33,613 nucleotides of DNA from Bacillus sp. ISL-37. Its GTDB lineage: Bacteria; Bacillota; Bacilli; Bacillales; Cytobacillaceae. The translations under genes and the position numbers were made by a program. The stretch is taken from the NCBI RefSeq assembly GCF_018613315.1, contig NZ_JAGGQL010000058.1, positions 1 through 33,613 of the forward strand. Reading direction: 5' to 3'. The notes below the pieces were generated by a model. It saw only the letters and a list, made by a program, of their open reading frames with translations. It made no database searches and was not told the origin of the DNA. Shown in pieces: positions 7,525 through 15,495 of this stretch (positions are counted from its first letter, which is position 1; every line of letters starts with the position of its first letter).

Positions 7525-7546
7525 GTAAATAGAGCTATTGGATGAA

Positions 7547-7728
7547 GGCTGTTTTCGTAAGATTGTTGTTAAAATCCTAAAACCGATTTTAACGTGATTA
7601 AAAGCCAATTTGCAGGTCGGTATTAAGTTTGCAAGCTCTTTTCTCATGATTAGCTTTAATTTTGTAGAGAAACATTGGTCATTCAATCAAATTTTGTAGT
7701 CACTAGCAACAAAGTTTGAGAAAAGAGC
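7547..7728 (+). mobile_element. MITE-like element, family A, copy 1 (upstream of phoP)
   Basis: A ~182-bp non-coding element. Its ends are imperfect inverted repeats: GGCTGTTTTCGTAA at the left and, on the other strand, GCTCTTTTCTCAAA at the right. The similarity runs about 26 bp (roughly 20 matches when measured on copy 2). It is flanked by an exact 8-bp direct repeat TGGATGAA at 7539-7546 and 7729-7736, the mark of a transposition event. A third copy of the end sequence, AGCTCTTTTCTCA, lies inside at 7634-7646. A second copy of the element is at 29412-29593 in opposite orientation. GGCT-type ends and 8-bp duplications are typical of ISL3-family elements, so a transposase of that type may have moved it (inference). 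Confidence 0.8.
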
Positions 7729-7766
7729 TGGATGAAACAGGGGTAATAACTTTTTTGGAGGCTTAT

Positions 7767-8483
7767 ATGAACAAGAAGGTCTTGGTTGTGGATGATGAAC
7801 AATCTATTGTGACACTGCTGAAGTATAATCTCGAACAGGCTGGTTATTCAGTGGTAACCGGTATGGACGGCGAGGAAGGAATCCGCCTTGCAGCTGATGA
7901 AAGACCGGATTTGATGATTTTGGATTTGATGCTTCCGAAGCTCGATGGCATGGAAGTATGCAAGCAGCTCAGGCAGCAGAAAATCAATGTGCCGATTCTG
8001 ATGCTGACGGCAAAAGATGACGAATTTGACAAAGTGCTTGGTTTGGAGCTTGGCGCTGATGATTACATGACTAAGCCGTTCAGTCCGCGTGAGGTAGTAG
8101 CAAGGGTAAAAGCCATTCTCAGAAGGACGCAGACACAGCCAGAAACAGTGGAGGAAAAGCCGGAAGAAGAGGGACAAATAAAAATTGGCGATGTTAGGAT
8201 CATCCCGGATTTCTATGAAGCTTATTTTATGGAAAACTTGCTTGAATTGACTCCGAAAGAATTCGAGCTGCTCCTTTACCTGGCAAAGAATAAAGGCAGG
8301 GTGCTGACTCGTGACCAGCTGCTCAGTGCTGTGTGGAATTATGACTTTGCAGGCGATACAAGAATCGTAGATGTACATATTAGCCACTTACGGGAAAAAA
8401 TAGAACAGAATACGAAAAAGCCATCCTATATCAAAACAATACGAGGCCTGGGATATAAGCTGGAGGAACCAAAGGGAGAATGA
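7767..8483 (+). CDS. phoP: Phosphate-limitation response regulator PhoP
   Basis: An OmpR-family response regulator that activates or represses Pho genes under phosphate starvation. The protein is 238 residues (B. subtilis PhoP has 240). The receiver domain (about 2-120) shows the acidic pair in VVDDEQS, the phosphoacceptor Asp in LMILDLMLPKLDG, the conserved Thr in ILMLTAKD and Lys in DDYMTKPF. A variable linker rich in Glu (PETVEEKPEEEGQ) precedes the winged-helix domain with LTPKEFELLLYLAKNKGRVLTRDQLLSAVWNY and the recognition helix DTRIVDVHISHLREKIE. Start: the ATG at 7767 follows TTTTGGAGG (7753-7761). The frame is open back into the MITE at 7716, but that extension is repeat-derived. Its last four bases overlap the phoR start. 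Confidence 0.97.
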   Translation: MNKKVLVVDDEQSIVTLLKYNLEQAGYSVVTGMDGEEGIRLAADERPDLMILDLMLPKLDGMEVCKQLRQQKINVPILMLTAKDDEFDKVLGLELGADDYMTKPFSPREVVARVKAILRRTQTQPETVEEKPEEEGQIKIGDVRIIPDFYEAYFMENLLELTPKEFELLLYLAKNKGRVLTRDQLLSAVWNYDFAGDTRIVDVHISHLREKIEQNTKKPSYIKTIRGLGYKLEEPKGE

Positions 8484-10246
8484 CAAAGTACCGGACACGT
8501 CTCTTGTTTGCCCTCATTACCCTGATCATCATCGTGTTGGTGGGCTTGGGCCTGCTTTTAGGGCAATTATTCAAGAATTACTACATTAATTCATTCAATG
8601 AACGGTTGAAGATCGAAATGAACCTTTTAACCTCCAATATCGAACAAAATGGAGGACTCACATCGTTGGACACCGAAGAAATTTCGCGGATGAGCGAGTT
8701 GCTTAACGGAAGGATCACCATCGTTGATCTTGAGGGTGATATCCATTATGACACGGGTGAACTATCAAGCACGAAAATCAACAGGCACAGGGATATTATT
8801 GGCGACATCGTTGAAGGGACTCCTGAAGAGCAGAGTGACCTTGAAGTAGGCGGAGGTTTTGACCTGCATTATTATTGGAAACCGCTCATTCATGATGGCG
8901 AAAAAGAAGGCTATGTTTTTTTAACAACAAAGATTGATGAACTGCAGAAAGCTTATCGACAAATCTGGTGGATTCTTACCGTTAGCCTTGGCATGGCATT
9001 AATGGTCATCATCCTTCTTGGCACAAGGATCACCAACCGCTATACGAAACCGATCGAGTCTGCGACAAACGTCGCGATCGAGCTGGCAAAAGGAAATTAT
9101 CGGGCCAGGACATATGAGGATCATATTGATGAAACAGGCATGCTGAGTTCGTCGATCAATATCCTTGCCAGAAATCTTCAGGAACTGATGAAGCTGAAAG
9201 AATCCCAGCAAGACAGATTGTCCACACTGATTGAAAATATGGGCAGCGGTTTGATTCTGATTGACAGCAGGGGCTTTATCAACTTGATTAATAAGCCTTA
9301 CAAAGAAATTTTTAATGTGGAGTCTTCTGAATACCTCTACAAACTTTACTATGAAGTAATTGACCATGAGGAAATTACCCAGATGGTCGAAGAGATTTTC
9401 ATGACAGAACAAAAAGTCCGGAAGCAAGTTGTTTTGCCATTGGAAATCGAACGACGCCATTTCGAAGTTTATGGAGTGCCGATTATCGGGACAAACAATG
9501 TCTGGAAGGGAATCCTTCTCGTTTTCCATGATATTACTGAACTCAAAAAACTGGAACAGATGAGGAAGGACTTTGTGGCAAATGTCTCGCATGAACTTAA
9601 GACACCAATTACCTCGATTAAGGGTTTTTCGGAAACGCTGCTGGATGGTGCGATGCATGATAAGGCAACACTTGAAGCATTCCTCGAAATCATTTTAAAG
9701 GAAAGTGACCGTCTTCAGGTATTGATCCAGGAATTGCTGGACCTTTCGAAGATTGAGCAGCATGGTTTCCGGCTGACTATAGGGACAGTTGATCTCGTAA
9801 AAGAAGCCAATGAAGTTATTGAGATTTTAAAAAGGAAAGCGGCACAAAAGGATATTATGCTGAAGCTCAGTCAGCCAAGCGAAGAGGCGGTCATTGAAGG
9901 AGACCCAGACAGGCTCAAGCAGGTGCTGATCAACCTTGTCAGCAATGCAATTACCTACACTCCAAATGGAGGCAGTGTAGAGATTTCTTTAACTGATCAG
10001 GAAGATTCCGTTTCAATTGTGGTCAAGGATTCAGGTATAGGGATCGAGAAGAGCGAAATAACGAGGATCTTTGAACGATTTTATCGGGTGGACAAGGCAA
10101 GAAGCCGGAACTCCGGCGGAACAGGGTTAGGCCTCGCCATCGTCAAACACATTGTTGAAGCACATAAAGGACATATCGAAGTTGACAGCCAGATTGGCAA
10201 AGGTACAGCGTTTACAATCAAGCTCTTTAAAAAGTTGCCTCAATAG
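8480..10246 (+). CDS. phoR: Phosphate-sensing histidine kinase PhoR (PnpS)
   Basis: A 588-residue membrane sensor kinase, the partner of PhoP. The order is TM1 at about 8-30, an extracellular PAS/PDC-like sensor (31-161), TM2 at about 162-182, HAMP (185-240), a cytoplasmic PAS domain (about 245-350, LSTLIENMGSGLILIDSRG), then HisKA with the phosphoacceptor His371 in FVANVSHELKTPITSIKGF. The ATPase domain carries the N box (QVLINLVSNAITYTP), G1 (VKDSGIGIEKSE), F box (IFERFYRVDKARSR) and G2 (GGTGLGLAIVKHIV). The start ATG at 8480 overlaps the phoP stop in ATGA, implying translational coupling. Length and domain order match B. subtilis PhoR (579 residues). It is followed by a terminator at 10290-10320. 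Confidence 0.97.
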   Translation: MTKYRTRLLFALITLIIIVLVGLGLLLGQLFKNYYINSFNERLKIEMNLLTSNIEQNGGLTSLDTEEISRMSELLNGRITIVDLEGDIHYDTGELSSTKINRHRDIIGDIVEGTPEEQSDLEVGGGFDLHYYWKPLIHDGEKEGYVFLTTKIDELQKAYRQIWWILTVSLGMALMVIILLGTRITNRYTKPIESATNVAIELAKGNYRARTYEDHIDETGMLSSSINILARNLQELMKLKESQQDRLSTLIENMGSGLILIDSRGFINLINKPYKEIFNVESSEYLYKLYYEVIDHEEITQMVEEIFMTEQKVRKQVVLPLEIERRHFEVYGVPIIGTNNVWKGILLVFHDITELKKLEQMRKDFVANVSHELKTPITSIKGFSETLLDGAMHDKATLEAFLEIILKESDRLQVLIQELLDLSKIEQHGFRLTIGTVDLVKEANEVIEILKRKAAQKDIMLKLSQPSEEAVIEGDPDRLKQVLINLVSNAITYTPNGGSVEISLTDQEDSVSIVVKDSGIGIEKSEITRIFERFYRVDKARSRNSGGTGLGLAIVKHIVEAHKGHIEVDSQIGKGTAFTIKLFKKLPQ

Positions 10247-10289
10247 GGGAAAACAATCAAGAGTCAAATAAGTAAAATATCAATTAGCA

Positions 10290-10320
10290 AGTCCAATTCG
10301 TAACAGAATTGGGCTTTTTC
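10290..10320 (+). terminator. Terminator after phoR
   Basis: A 7-bp stem CCAATTC/GAATTGG with a GTAACA loop, followed by a GCTTTTT tail. Confidence 0.75.
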
Positions 10321-10389: not shown

Positions 10390-10443
10390 TTTACATTCAC
10401 TTAACAAAAGGTTTATTTTTCCTTAACACTGCCTTGCTAAAAT
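10390..10443 (+). promoter_or_regulatory. PhoP-type promoter with four phased boxes
   Basis: Four TT[AT]A[CT][AT]-type boxes sit at exactly 11-bp intervals: TTTACA 10390-10395, TTAACA 10401-10406, TTTATT 10412-10417, TTAACA 10423-10428. The last ends 9 bp before an extended -10, TGC-TAAAAT (10435-10443). This is the core layout of PhoP-activated B. subtilis promoters: four direct repeats at about -20 to -60, 5-bp gaps, poor -35. The predicted transcript start is near 10451. It is well placed for a PhoP target immediately downstream of phoPR. Confidence 0.8.
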
Positions 10444-10450
10444 CATTAGT

Positions 10451-10512
10451 GAAAACCCCTTCATCCAAGGAGCTAGAAAAAAGCACAAGCCGACCCCGCT
10501 TGTGCTTTTTTC
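10451..10512 (+). ncRNA. Candidate PhoP-dependent small RNA (or remnant leader), about 62 nt
   Basis: The PhoP-type promoter is followed only by ~30 nt and a strong terminator (10477-10512). No ATG, GTG or TTG with a usable frame exists between start and terminator. A ribosome-site-like AAGGAG at 10467-10472 has no start codon after it. It is therefore either a small regulatory RNA or the stub left when a Pho gene, for example a pst operon, was lost. Untested. Confidence 0.5.
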
Positions 10513-10513
10513 A
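10477..10513. terminator. Strong bidirectional terminator
   Basis: A perfect 10-bp stem AAGCACAAGC/GCTTGTGCTT with a 7-base loop, flanked by A-run and T-run that extend the stem. Confidence 0.9.
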
Positions 10514-10572: not shown

Positions 10573-10598
10573 TGAAACTTTTACTGTTTATAAACGTA
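10573..10598 (+). promoter_or_regulatory. sigma-W-type promoter of hflK-hflC
   Basis: TGAAAC at 10573-10578, exactly 16 bp, then CGTA at 10595-10598, 40 bp before the hflK start. This is the full B. subtilis sigma-W consensus. Other Bacillus SPFH/flotillin genes are known sigma-W targets, which fits. Confidence 0.8.
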
Positions 10599-10638: not shown

Positions 10639-11607
10639 ATGGTGAGCTTAAAGCAAATTTACGTGACGGGCGGAATTGTTGTCCTGGCCATTATTTTAGG
10701 TGTTTCGGCGTTCACTACATGGTATACGGTCGATGAATCTGAACAGGCTGTGATTTTGACGTTTGGAAAAGTGGAGGAAGGGATTAGCGAACCGGGGTTG
10801 CACTTTAAGCTGCCTTGGCCAATCCAGAGTGTCGAGAAATTATCGAAAGAAACTTTCAGCCTCCAGTTTGGTTATGAGGAAAAGAATGGGAAAATCCAGG
10901 AGTTCCCTGATGAAACAAAGATGATTACCGGCGACGAAAACATCGTGCTTGCCGACCTGGTTGTACAATGGAAAATAACCGACCCGGAAAAATACTTATA
11001 TAACGCCGATAATCCGAGGGAAATCTTGTATGACGCTACTTCAGCGTCAGTAAGAAGCATTATCGGAAGTTCTCTAATCGATGATGCATTGACTTCAGGT
11101 AAAGCTGAAATCGAAGCAGAGGTCCGTGACTTATTGTCCTCATTGATTGAAAAGTATGATATGGGTGTATCCGTCCTAGGTGTAAAGCTACAGGATGTTG
11201 AATTGCCAAATGAAGAAGTGCGAAAGGCTTTTACCGATGTTACGGATGCGCGTGAAACAATGAACACGAAAATCAATGAGGCAAAGAAATACCGCAACCA
11301 GAAGTTGAACGAAGCCCAGGGGGAAAAGGATGCGCTGATCTCAAGAGCGGAAGGGGAAAAAGCTGCGAGGATTGAACGGGCTAGAGGTGACGTGGCGGTA
11401 TTCAATAAACTGCTTGTTGAATACAAAACTAATCCGGACATCACAAGACAGCGTTTAATTCTAGAAACGCTTGAGCAAGTTCTGCCGGGAACAGAAATTT
11501 ACATCATGAATGATGATGGCAATACAATGAAGTATTTCCCGATTCGTCCGCTTGAAGCAGATAAACCGAAGTCAGAGAAGGAAGGCAGTGAAAAGAATAA
11601 TGGTTGA
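10639..11607 (+). CDS. hflK: HflK, SPFH/band-7 membrane protein (FtsH modulator)
   Basis: In characterised bacteria HflK and HflC form a large membrane cage that encloses and modulates the FtsH protease. This protein has 322 residues. A single N-terminal signal anchor (about 6-28, IYVTGGIVVLAIILGVSAF) puts the rest outside the membrane. It is followed by the band-7 domain beginning TVDESEQAVILTFGKVEEGISEPGLHFKLPWPIQ, then a charged coiled-coil arm rich in Glu/Ala/Arg (about 195-260, including AEGEKAARIERARGD) and a C-terminal part with ETLEQVLPGTEIYIMNDDG. Start: the ATG at 10639 follows GAAGAGGGG; an ATG at 10634 is in another frame. It overlaps hflC by 8 bases. B. subtilis has no hflKC here. 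Confidence 0.93.
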   Translation: MVSLKQIYVTGGIVVLAIILGVSAFTTWYTVDESEQAVILTFGKVEEGISEPGLHFKLPWPIQSVEKLSKETFSLQFGYEEKNGKIQEFPDETKMITGDENIVLADLVVQWKITDPEKYLYNADNPREILYDATSASVRSIIGSSLIDDALTSGKAEIEAEVRDLLSSLIEKYDMGVSVLGVKLQDVELPNEEVRKAFTDVTDARETMNTKINEAKKYRNQKLNEAQGEKDALISRAEGEKAARIERARGDVAVFNKLLVEYKTNPDITRQRLILETLEQVLPGTEIYIMNDDGNTMKYFPIRPLEADKPKSEKEGSEKNNG

Positions 11608-12864: not shown

Positions 12865-15495
12865 ATGTCTAAAAAGCTTGTTTTGATAGATGGAAACAGT
12901 ATTGCATACCGTGCGTTTTTTGCACTGCCGCTGTTGAATAATGAAAAAGGAATACATACCAATGCCGTTTATGGTTTTACGATGATGCTGATGAAAATTC
13001 TCGAGGATGAAAAGCCTACCCATATTCTTGTTGCGTTTGATGCCGGGAAAACGACGTTCAGGCATAAAACCTTCAGTGAGTACAAGGGAGGAAGGCAAAA
13101 AACTCCGCCTGAGCTTTCTGAGCAGTTTCCGTTTATCCGTGAACTGCTAACGGCTTATGGTATCTCGCAATACGAGCTGGAGAACTATGAAGCCGATGAC
13201 ATTATCGGTACATTAAGCTTGCAGGCTGAAAAAGAAGGATTCGAAACAAAGGTCATTTCAGGGGATAAGGACTTAACCCAGTTGAGTTCTGAAAAAACGA
13301 CAGTCAATATCACAAGAAAAGGAATCACCGATATTGAAGAATATACGCCTGAGCATATCAAGGAGAAATATGGTCTCACAGCGGAACAAATCATTGATAT
13401 GAAAGGTCTCATGGGCGATGCATCCGATAATATTCCAGGAGTTCCTGGAGTAGGGGAAAAAACAGCAATCAAGCTATTGAAGGAATACGGCACACTTGAG
13501 AATCTTTTGGATTCAATTGATCAAGTCAGCGGGAACAAGCTTAAGGAAAAGTTAGAGGAATTCAAAGACCAGGCCGTCATGAGCAAGGAACTCGCAACCA
13601 TCACGCGGGAAGCACCTGTGGGAGTAGAGTTGAGTGAGCTTGAGTATGAAGGAGAAGAGAACGAAAAGCTCGTGAAAATGTTCAAGGAACTTGGGTTCAA
13701 TTCCCTGCTGGACAAGCTGGGATTAGTTACGGAAGCAGAAAATGTAGAACTTGAAGACATTGAGTTCAAGCAGCTGGATCAGATTGAGAAAGATATTTTT
13801 GCCAAAGACAATGGCTTTTATGTTGAGGTGCTAGAAGATAATTACCATTATGCCGATATTATCGGCTTTGCTGTTGTAAATGAAAATGGCAGCTTCTACC
13901 TGCCTGTAAAAATAGCACTGGAATCTGAAGAGTTCAAGAAATGGGCCGAGGATGAGTCCAGCAAAAAAACAGTCTATGATGCGAAACGTTCCGAGGTTTC
14001 ATTGCGGCATCACGGTATCCATCTGAAGGGTGCCGACTTCGATGTGTCACTTGCATCCTATATCATCAATCCTTCGGAGTCACCAGATGACCTGTCTGCC
14101 ATTGCAAGACAGCATGGATTTACGAGTGTGCAGGCTGACGCAGCTGTCTATGGAAAAGGTGCAAAACGGAAAATACCTGATGATAATATCCTTGGAGAGC
14201 ATCTAGTCCGCAAGGCAGATGTACTTTTGTCATTAAAAGAAAAGCTTGAGCAGGAGCTATGGGACAATGACCAACATGATCTGTTCAGAAGTCTTGAAAT
14301 GCCGCTATCATTGGTGCTTGCTGATATGGAATATCAGGGCGTTAAGCTTGATATGAATCGCCTGGATAATATGGGTGAAGAAATCAAAGGTCGTCTAGCC
14401 GATATCGAAACCAGGATTTTTGAAATGGCAGGAGAACAGTTCAATATCAATTCTCCTAAACAATTAGGTGTCATCCTTTTTGAAAAACTGGGACTGCCTG
14501 CCGTGAAAAAGACGAAAACAGGCTATTCTACCTCAGCGGATGTCCTTGAAAAATTGGCGCCGAAACATAAAATCATTGAAGAAATTCTTAACTATCGCCA
14601 GCTAGGAAAATTGCAATCAACATATATCGAAGGCTTGCAAAAGGTCGTCAATAAAGAGACAGAAAAAGTGCATACAAGATTCAACCAGGCGCTAACAGCG
14701 ACAGGAAGATTGAGCTCGACGGATCCGAACCTGCAGAACATCCCAATCAGGTTAGAAGAAGGTCGGAAAATCAGGCAGGCATTTGTTCCATCCGAAAAAG
14801 GCTGGGTCATCTTTGCAGCGGACTATTCGCAAATTGAACTTCGTGTTCTCGCCCATATTGCGGGCGATGAGAAACTGATTGATGCTTTCCAGAATGACAT
14901 GGATATCCATACCAAGACGGCAATGGAGGTATTTAATGTAGGGAAAGATGAAGTCTCCTCCAATATGCGCCGACATGCAAAAGCAGTTAACTTCGGAATT
15001 GTTTACGGAATCAGCGATTATGGATTATCCCAGAGCCTGAACATTACAAGGAAGGAAGCTGGCGAATTCATTGAGCGCTACCTTGAAAGCTATCCTGGTG
15101 TCAAAGAATATATGGATGAAATCGTTAAGGATGCAAAAGCGAAGGGCTATGTCCAAACATTATTACATCGCCGCAGATATATCCCTGAAATTACGGCACG
15201 AAACTTCAACCTAAGGAGTTTTGCGGAACGGACGGCTATGAATACTCCGATCCAGGGAAGTGCCGCAGATATTATCAAGAAGGCAATGATTGATATGGCA
15301 GAGAGACTCCGCGAAGAGGGCATAAAGACAAGACTGCTGCTTCAGGTACATGATGAATTGATTTTTGAAGCACCTGAGGATGAAATTGAGTTATTGAAAA
15401 AGATCGTGCCAGAAGTCATGGAAAATGCCATTGAATTGAAGGTGCCGTTAAAGGTGGACTTCTCATATGGCCCGACTTGGTATGACGCAAAGTAG
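12865..15495 (+). CDS. polA: DNA polymerase I
   Basis: Repair and Okazaki-fragment-processing polymerase, 876 residues. The 5'-3' exonuclease domain (1 to about 290) starts LVLIDGNSIAYRAFFALP and includes FDAGKTTFRHK, ADDIIGTL and GDASDNIPGVPGVGEKTA. The middle domain (about 300-465) lacks the acidic DxE triad, so proofreading is inactive, as in other Bacillus Pol I. The polymerase domain has motif A with Asp653 (FAADYSQIELRVLAHIAGD), motif B RRHAKAVNFGIVYGIS and motif C with Asp830 (LLQVHDELIFE); these residue numbers coincide with those of B. stearothermophilus Pol I. Start: the ATG at 12865 follows AGAGGAGG. It is 39 bp upstream of mutM and probably in one transcript with it. A MITE sits directly before its ribosome site. 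Confidence 0.98.
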   Translation: MSKKLVLIDGNSIAYRAFFALPLLNNEKGIHTNAVYGFTMMLMKILEDEKPTHILVAFDAGKTTFRHKTFSEYKGGRQKTPPELSEQFPFIRELLTAYGISQYELENYEADDIIGTLSLQAEKEGFETKVISGDKDLTQLSSEKTTVNITRKGITDIEEYTPEHIKEKYGLTAEQIIDMKGLMGDASDNIPGVPGVGEKTAIKLLKEYGTLENLLDSIDQVSGNKLKEKLEEFKDQAVMSKELATITREAPVGVELSELEYEGEENEKLVKMFKELGFNSLLDKLGLVTEAENVELEDIEFKQLDQIEKDIFAKDNGFYVEVLEDNYHYADIIGFAVVNENGSFYLPVKIALESEEFKKWAEDESSKKTVYDAKRSEVSLRHHGIHLKGADFDVSLASYIINPSESPDDLSAIARQHGFTSVQADAAVYGKGAKRKIPDDNILGEHLVRKADVLLSLKEKLEQELWDNDQHDLFRSLEMPLSLVLADMEYQGVKLDMNRLDNMGEEIKGRLADIETRIFEMAGEQFNINSPKQLGVILFEKLGLPAVKKTKTGYSTSADVLEKLAPKHKIIEEILNYRQLGKLQSTYIEGLQKVVNKETEKVHTRFNQALTATGRLSSTDPNLQNIPIRLEEGRKIRQAFVPSEKGWVIFAADYSQIELRVLAHIAGDEKLIDAFQNDMDIHTKTAMEVFNVGKDEVSSNMRRHAKAVNFGIVYGISDYGLSQSLNITRKEAGEFIERYLESYPGVKEYMDEIVKDAKAKGYVQTLLHRRRYIPEITARNFNLRSFAERTAMNTPIQGSAADIIKKAMIDMAERLREEGIKTRLLLQVHDELIFEAPEDEIELLKKIVPEVMENAIELKVPLKVDFSYGPTWYDAK

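Follow-up and report, generated by a model that had tools for sequence, protein, structure and literature searches.

A PhoP-box small RNA gene downstream of phoR in Bacillus sp. ISL-37, very probably phoS, and its conservation across the order

We analyzed a 33,613-nt stretch of Bacillus sp. ISL-37 DNA (the window) and found that the block following phoR appears, from its sequence, to be a real and functional gene. It is very probably phoS, which lies between phoR and hflK/polA and would encode a PhoP-activated, trans-acting small RNA of about 64 nt that likely acts on the phoP leader. The preliminary description of this DNA had offered two readings of the block: a previously unnoticed small RNA induced by phosphate starvation, or the stub of a lost Pho operon. 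The small RNA of the first reading agrees with the order-wide occurrence of the block, whereas its novelty does not stand, as excerpts of two later papers place the first report of PhoS, for B. velezensis and B. subtilis, in 2024 (Li et al., in PMC13001227 and PMC12101431). What is new here is the spread over 20 families, the absence from Rfam and the uneven pairing with phoP, although the original PhoS paper may hold some of this.

Results

Genomic context and promoter

All features described below lie on the forward (+) strand. The order in the window is phoP (7767..8483, ATG at 7767), the likely PhoS target; phoR (8480..10246), identified from sequence; a terminator-like hairpin of the phoPR operon (10289..10316; predicted at -14.7 kcal/mol, with a T run behind it); the PhoS block; and three genes that we take to be hflK (10639-11607), hflC and polA (12865-15495) on the basis of sequence and gene order. 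Because phoPR upstream has its own hairpin, PhoS looks like a separate unit. A TGAAAC...CGTA sequence, presumably the ECF-sigma-like promoter motif of hflK, is found at 10573-10598, upstream of that gene, and recurs before hflK at other genus loci.

Four PhoP-type boxes occupy 10390..10428, namely TTTACA (10390), TTAACA (10401), TTTATT (10412) and TTAACA (10423), at steps of exactly 11 bp. Against the PhoP-box consensus TTWACA the third box agrees at only 4 of 6 positions and the array as a whole scores 22/24. The only other place in the window scoring at least 19 is the same array shifted by one box (10401), and none of 60 Markov-simulated windows contained a site of 22 or more, the top simulated score being 20. 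Boxes scoring at least 19/24 at 11-bp steps were present in 174 of 178 distinct PhoS upstream regions (drawn from 205 loci, with some genomes present twice) compared with 1 of 2,000 random 90-mers, and in 118 of the 178 the array stood exactly 20 nt ahead of the RNA. Downstream of the boxes is an extended -10, TGC-TAAAAT (10435..10443), which could be aligned in 17 genus sequences; there the hexamer is TACAAT in 12/17 and TATCAT in 4/17, with TAAAAT in the window. The boxes, their spacing and the extended -10 are exactly where the preliminary description had put them, and its view that the promoter is too well preserved for a relic is borne out by the boxes kept in the distinct upstream regions. 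A simple consensus scan did not list the PhoS terminator and paired the first box with a hexamer other than the TAAAAT -10. Judged by sequence only, the RNA has a PhoP-box promoter of its own, apart from that of phoPR, as is characteristic of PhoS.

The RNA and its terminator

The predicted RNA is about 64 nt long (10449..10512), its start being placed from the -10, and matches RNA model R1 with 97.1 bits, the window sequence being among those used to build that model. Near its 5′ end, alignments of relatives reveal a conserved core, AACCCCTTCATCCAAGGAG (10454..10472). This core includes the AAGGAG at 10467-10472, which had been suspected to be an orphan ribosome-binding site and turns out instead to be part of the conserved RNA. 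The core CCCCTTCATCC (= CCCCUUCAUCC) was exact in 100 of 117 distinct RNAs, a conservation that is partly ascertained because the model that retrieved those RNAs had itself been built on the core; neither synteny nor the boxes depend on it. In the genome of the window, ACCCCTTCATCCAAGGAG occurs once and the next best places have 3 mismatches. Across the genus AACCCCTTCATCCAAGG is nearly unchanging, while the spacer preceding it is free and holds whole genes in some genomes.

The RNA ends in an intrinsic terminator (10476..10512), GAAAAAAGCACAAGC-CGACCCC-GCTTGTGCTTTTTTC, with a perfect stem and ACCCC in the loop, in agreement with the terminator claimed about 60 bp past the promoter. The core is C-rich, and a second ACCCC is found in the terminator loop in many lineages. 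The window RNA folds at -24 kcal/mol (z -6.4), which none of 200 shuffles equaled. The terminator stem covaries, with both-side changes in 14 of 15 pairs and a covariation score reached by 0 of 500 shuffles, although the alignment used for this count had been fitted to the structure. For a small 5′ hairpin, CCUU/AAGG, both-side changes were seen in 2 of 4 pairs, 7 of 500 shuffles equaled its covariation score, and a higher score was obtained when the partner was shifted by one column. Support for this hairpin being weak, we took the core to be mostly single-stranded. We also rejected a coding role, since any frame is broken by indels and start-codon changes between relatives (alignment A3), which upholds the absence of a coding frame noted earlier; a Shine-Dalgarno-like string with a start codon occurred in 9 of the 53 RNAs of that alignment and was judged non-conserved.

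Conservation from genus to class

Twenty-one genus genomes were brought in via PhoR, and the spacers 3′ of phoR were read for 20 loci, phoR being truncated in the other (L023). The core was present in 17 of the 20 spacer stretches used, and a fuller inspection raised this to 18 of 21 loci. The RNA model matched 20 of the 21 genomes. In 19 of these the match follows phoR on one contig, whereas in G010 the two are split between separate short contigs. The model had no match in G001, whose contig stops 244 nt past phoR. The spacer between phoR and the RNA turns over freely in the genus, even with inserted genes. In some members of the genus, extra genes separate phoR from phoS (L015, L017-L019, L020); by eye, one ORF is common to four of these loci (L015, L017-L019) and L020 has a uridine-kinase-like ORF. 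Also by eye, the PhoS terminator of L008 (G005) is split within its loop by an apparent insertion sequence.

At the family level, model R1 matched 122 of 193 genomes at E ≤0.01, weak matches including chance terminators. Among 40 regions inspected, chosen from the stronger matches, 37 had the RNA between phoR and hflK/polA, downstream of phoR on its strand; the other three (L104, L107, L109) were rejected as chance terminators. A second model, R2, built from 53 RNAs, matched 196 of 397 genomes of the order at E ≤0.001 and left 201 without a match. A subset of these matches was inspected, and in all 59 loci, from 20 families, the RNA was downstream of phoR on its strand (3 of the 59 belong to the family of the window). 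In the class, using search filters that lose weak matches, 14 of 299 genomes matched at E ≤1e-5; 12 were of the same order, and the other two (G591, G693) were chance terminators, with phoP, phoR, hflK and polA not found on the stretches examined.

A scan for the exact 19-nt core returned at least 119 stretches. All 80 named loci examined carry phoR, hflK or polA, with phoR upstream on the same strand in 75 of them. The names include B. velezensis, B. mojavensis, Priestia, Peribacillus, Metabacillus, Rossellomorea, Sutcliffiella, Cytobacillus and Anoxybacillus, and further B. pumilus and B. spizizenii. Thus the comparison of the phoR-polA interval in relatives, which had been proposed as a check, shows a conserved block in which boxes and terminator are kept rather than drifting freely. 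A variant core, GAAACCCTTTCATCCAAGGTGTTTTC, was seen at the same place after phoR in L153, L159, L167 and L169 (families f7 and f37). For these four, the phoP match was weak in three (L312, L318 and L326, equaled by 55, 27 and 13 of 100 shuffles) but good in L328 (1 of 100).

Predicted pairing with the phoP leader

The preliminary description had suggested a search for complementary mRNA targets, and phoP is the likely one. In the window, duplex prediction places a PhoS-complementary site, TGGATGAAACAGGGG, at 7729..7743, 24-38 nt upstream of the ATG, with a predicted duplex of -23.2 kcal/mol that 1 of 100 shuffles matched. A 183-bp MITE-like repeat (7548..7730), recognized from genome matches and with TGGATGAA on both sides, is inserted right in this site, splitting and duplicating it. 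The left site copy and the end of the inserted repeat form a second, longer complementary stretch (7532..7558; predicted duplex -28.6 kcal/mol). The repeat has at least 41 matches in the genome (40 of 133 candidates scored), and 9 of the 21 genus loci carry it in their phoP leader. It has imperfect terminal inverted repeats and, by eye, target duplications of about 8 bp; in one genome (G016) another copy lies in the phoR-phoS spacer.

We then considered 150 distinct leader/RNA pairs, obtained by merging duplicates from 181 loci with a phoP start, 174 of which have the core on the same locus. The mean best duplex was -19.9 kcal/mol for the phoP leader versus -13.6 for phoR, -14.9 for polA and -14.3 for hflK of the same loci, and the phoP leader was better than that of phoR in 120/141, polA in 73/93 and hflK in 63/69 comparisons. 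For 90 of the 150 phoP pairs, the window's among them, no more than 5 of 100 shuffles did as well (42 of these pairs were better than all 100); for 22 pairs the number was 6-20, and for the other 38 it exceeded 20. Across the 90 well-matched pairs, the median distance from the end of the site to the start codon downstream was 23 nt. The site is thus usually clear of the ribosome-binding site, a position more in keeping with activation than with simple blocking.

In a simple folding test on 126 of the 150 leaders (24 dropped), blocking the site showed no general release of the ribosome-binding site, its mean unpaired value being 0.58 versus 0.58. A gain above 0.1 was seen in 30 leaders with the site blocked and in 17 with a control block. 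In the window the value went from 0.47 to 0.42, while in eight genus leaders, with and without the repeat, it rose from 0.40-0.48 to 0.64-0.78.

Discussion

The sequence features described above would fit the following course of events. When phosphate runs out, PhoP~P would bind the four boxes and switch on transcription of phoS, which would halt at its terminator. By computed complementarity, the 5′ core ACCCCUUCAUCCAAGG would pair with GGAUGA(A)(N0-3)GGGG, a motif that the phoP leader carries immediately ahead of its ribosome-binding site. Pairing would raise PhoP translation and close a positive loop, the direction being that published for PhoS: the excerpt of PMC13001227 describes PhoP-activated expression of PhoS in B. 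velezensis and B. subtilis, and PhoS raising PhoP translation via the phoP 5′ UTR. PhoS thus probably helps to switch on PhoP.

Alternatively, PhoS may mainly repress G-rich ribosome-binding sites in the manner of FsrA and RsaE/RoxS, which are C-rich small RNAs of Firmicutes, with phoP a minor or lineage-specific target. We consider this unlikely. The C-rich core and the ACCCC of the loop would suit such a role, as would the 38 pairs in which the core is kept although the phoP match is weak. However, a scan of 12 genomes with TTGGATGAAGGGG, restricted to near-perfect matches (at most 1 mismatch), turned up no further leader that recurred; of its 144 matches 60 were inspected, the phoS locus read on the other strand being one of them. 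With TGGATGAAN{0,3}GGGG in the genus, the phoP leader (4 of 31) was the sole recurring one before a gene among the 31 of 168 matches inspected. The account of phoP activation in excerpts of the reviews (PMC13001227, PMC12101431) also argues against it. Returning to activation of phoP by PhoS, the pairs with a kept core and a weak phoP match, which include several Anoxybacillus, the B. licheniformis group and several Cytobacillus, suggest further targets. PhoS could be an ancient, order-wide RNA of the Pho regulon for which the phoP loop is one lineage-variable output, the 16-24-nt core being held by at least one further ancient target; we see the case for this as evenly balanced. The contrast between a near-invariant core and a patchy phoP site predicts a second target, which is testable in B. 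subtilis.

A role in cis, as an attenuator or leader for hflKC or polA whose terminator would set read-through into the next gene, seems very improbable to us. The terminator is strong and hflK or polA comes next on the same strand in 58 of the 59 inspected order loci, as one would expect of such an element; yet the next gene is inconstant (hflK in 36/58, polA in 22/58) and lies 59-937 nt away, or up to about 1500 nt among the named exact-core loci. In addition, the best-conserved part looks like a linear core rather than a switchable structure, and hflK presumably has an ECF-sigma-like promoter of its own. The notion of a relic promoter of a lost Pho operon followed by a chance terminator, to which the short promoter-terminator distance and the absence of an ORF had lent some appeal, can practically be dismissed, refuted as it is by the promoter-RNA-terminator block, which follows phoR in every one of the 59 order loci inspected (20 families), with its near-invariant core, covarying terminator and kept boxes.

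What had looked like a puzzling promoter stub would thus be a regulatory gene missing from Rfam: a scan of the window at the gathering score gave an L20 leader as its sole match and left the PhoS RNA uncovered. The promoter, core and target site together provide a comparative map for the RNA-based arm of this order's phosphate response.

Our identification of the RNA as a PhoS orthologue rests on position, size, own promoter and an exact core common with B. velezensis, read together with the reviews. Reportedly, PhoS also promotes biofilm formation. In the excerpts available, PhoS is described as lying in the 3′ UTR of phoPR in B. velezensis FZB42, active in B. subtilis too and stimulated by PhoP (PMC13001227), and as a 66-nt RNA with its own promoter that prevents an inhibitory structure (PMC12101431). 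The work is cited in the introduction of PMC13340098, and the relevant parts of PMC12421985 and PMC12029170 merely cite the PhoS paper. The portions seen of PMC3542257, PMC3871023, PMC13403408 and PMC4634765 make no mention of an RNA locus adjacent to phoR; in the last of these, FZB42 sRNAs are named 'Bas' plus a number and phoR is absent from the main text.

Homology was judged against genome copies of the B. velezensis and B. subtilis group, not the published PhoS sequence, and the exact AACCCCTTCATCCAAGGAG was found at the same place in B. velezensis (L243), B. mojavensis (L236) and B. spizizenii (L277). The B. velezensis copy measures 68 nt with its T run included in full versus about 64 nt in the window, both starts being inferred. 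PhoS of FZB42 and B. subtilis and the window RNA are alike in lying 3′ of phoR behind a PhoP-type promoter, in size (about 66 and 64 nt) and in a predicted site in the phoP 5′ UTR. They differ in that the terminator sequence is not that of B. velezensis, with ACCCC in the window loop, that hflK rather than polA comes next, and that a repeat lies inside the window's phoP leader. FsrA and RsaE/RoxS resemble the window RNA in being short and terminator-ended with a C-rich seed, but are encoded at another place and answer to another regulator.
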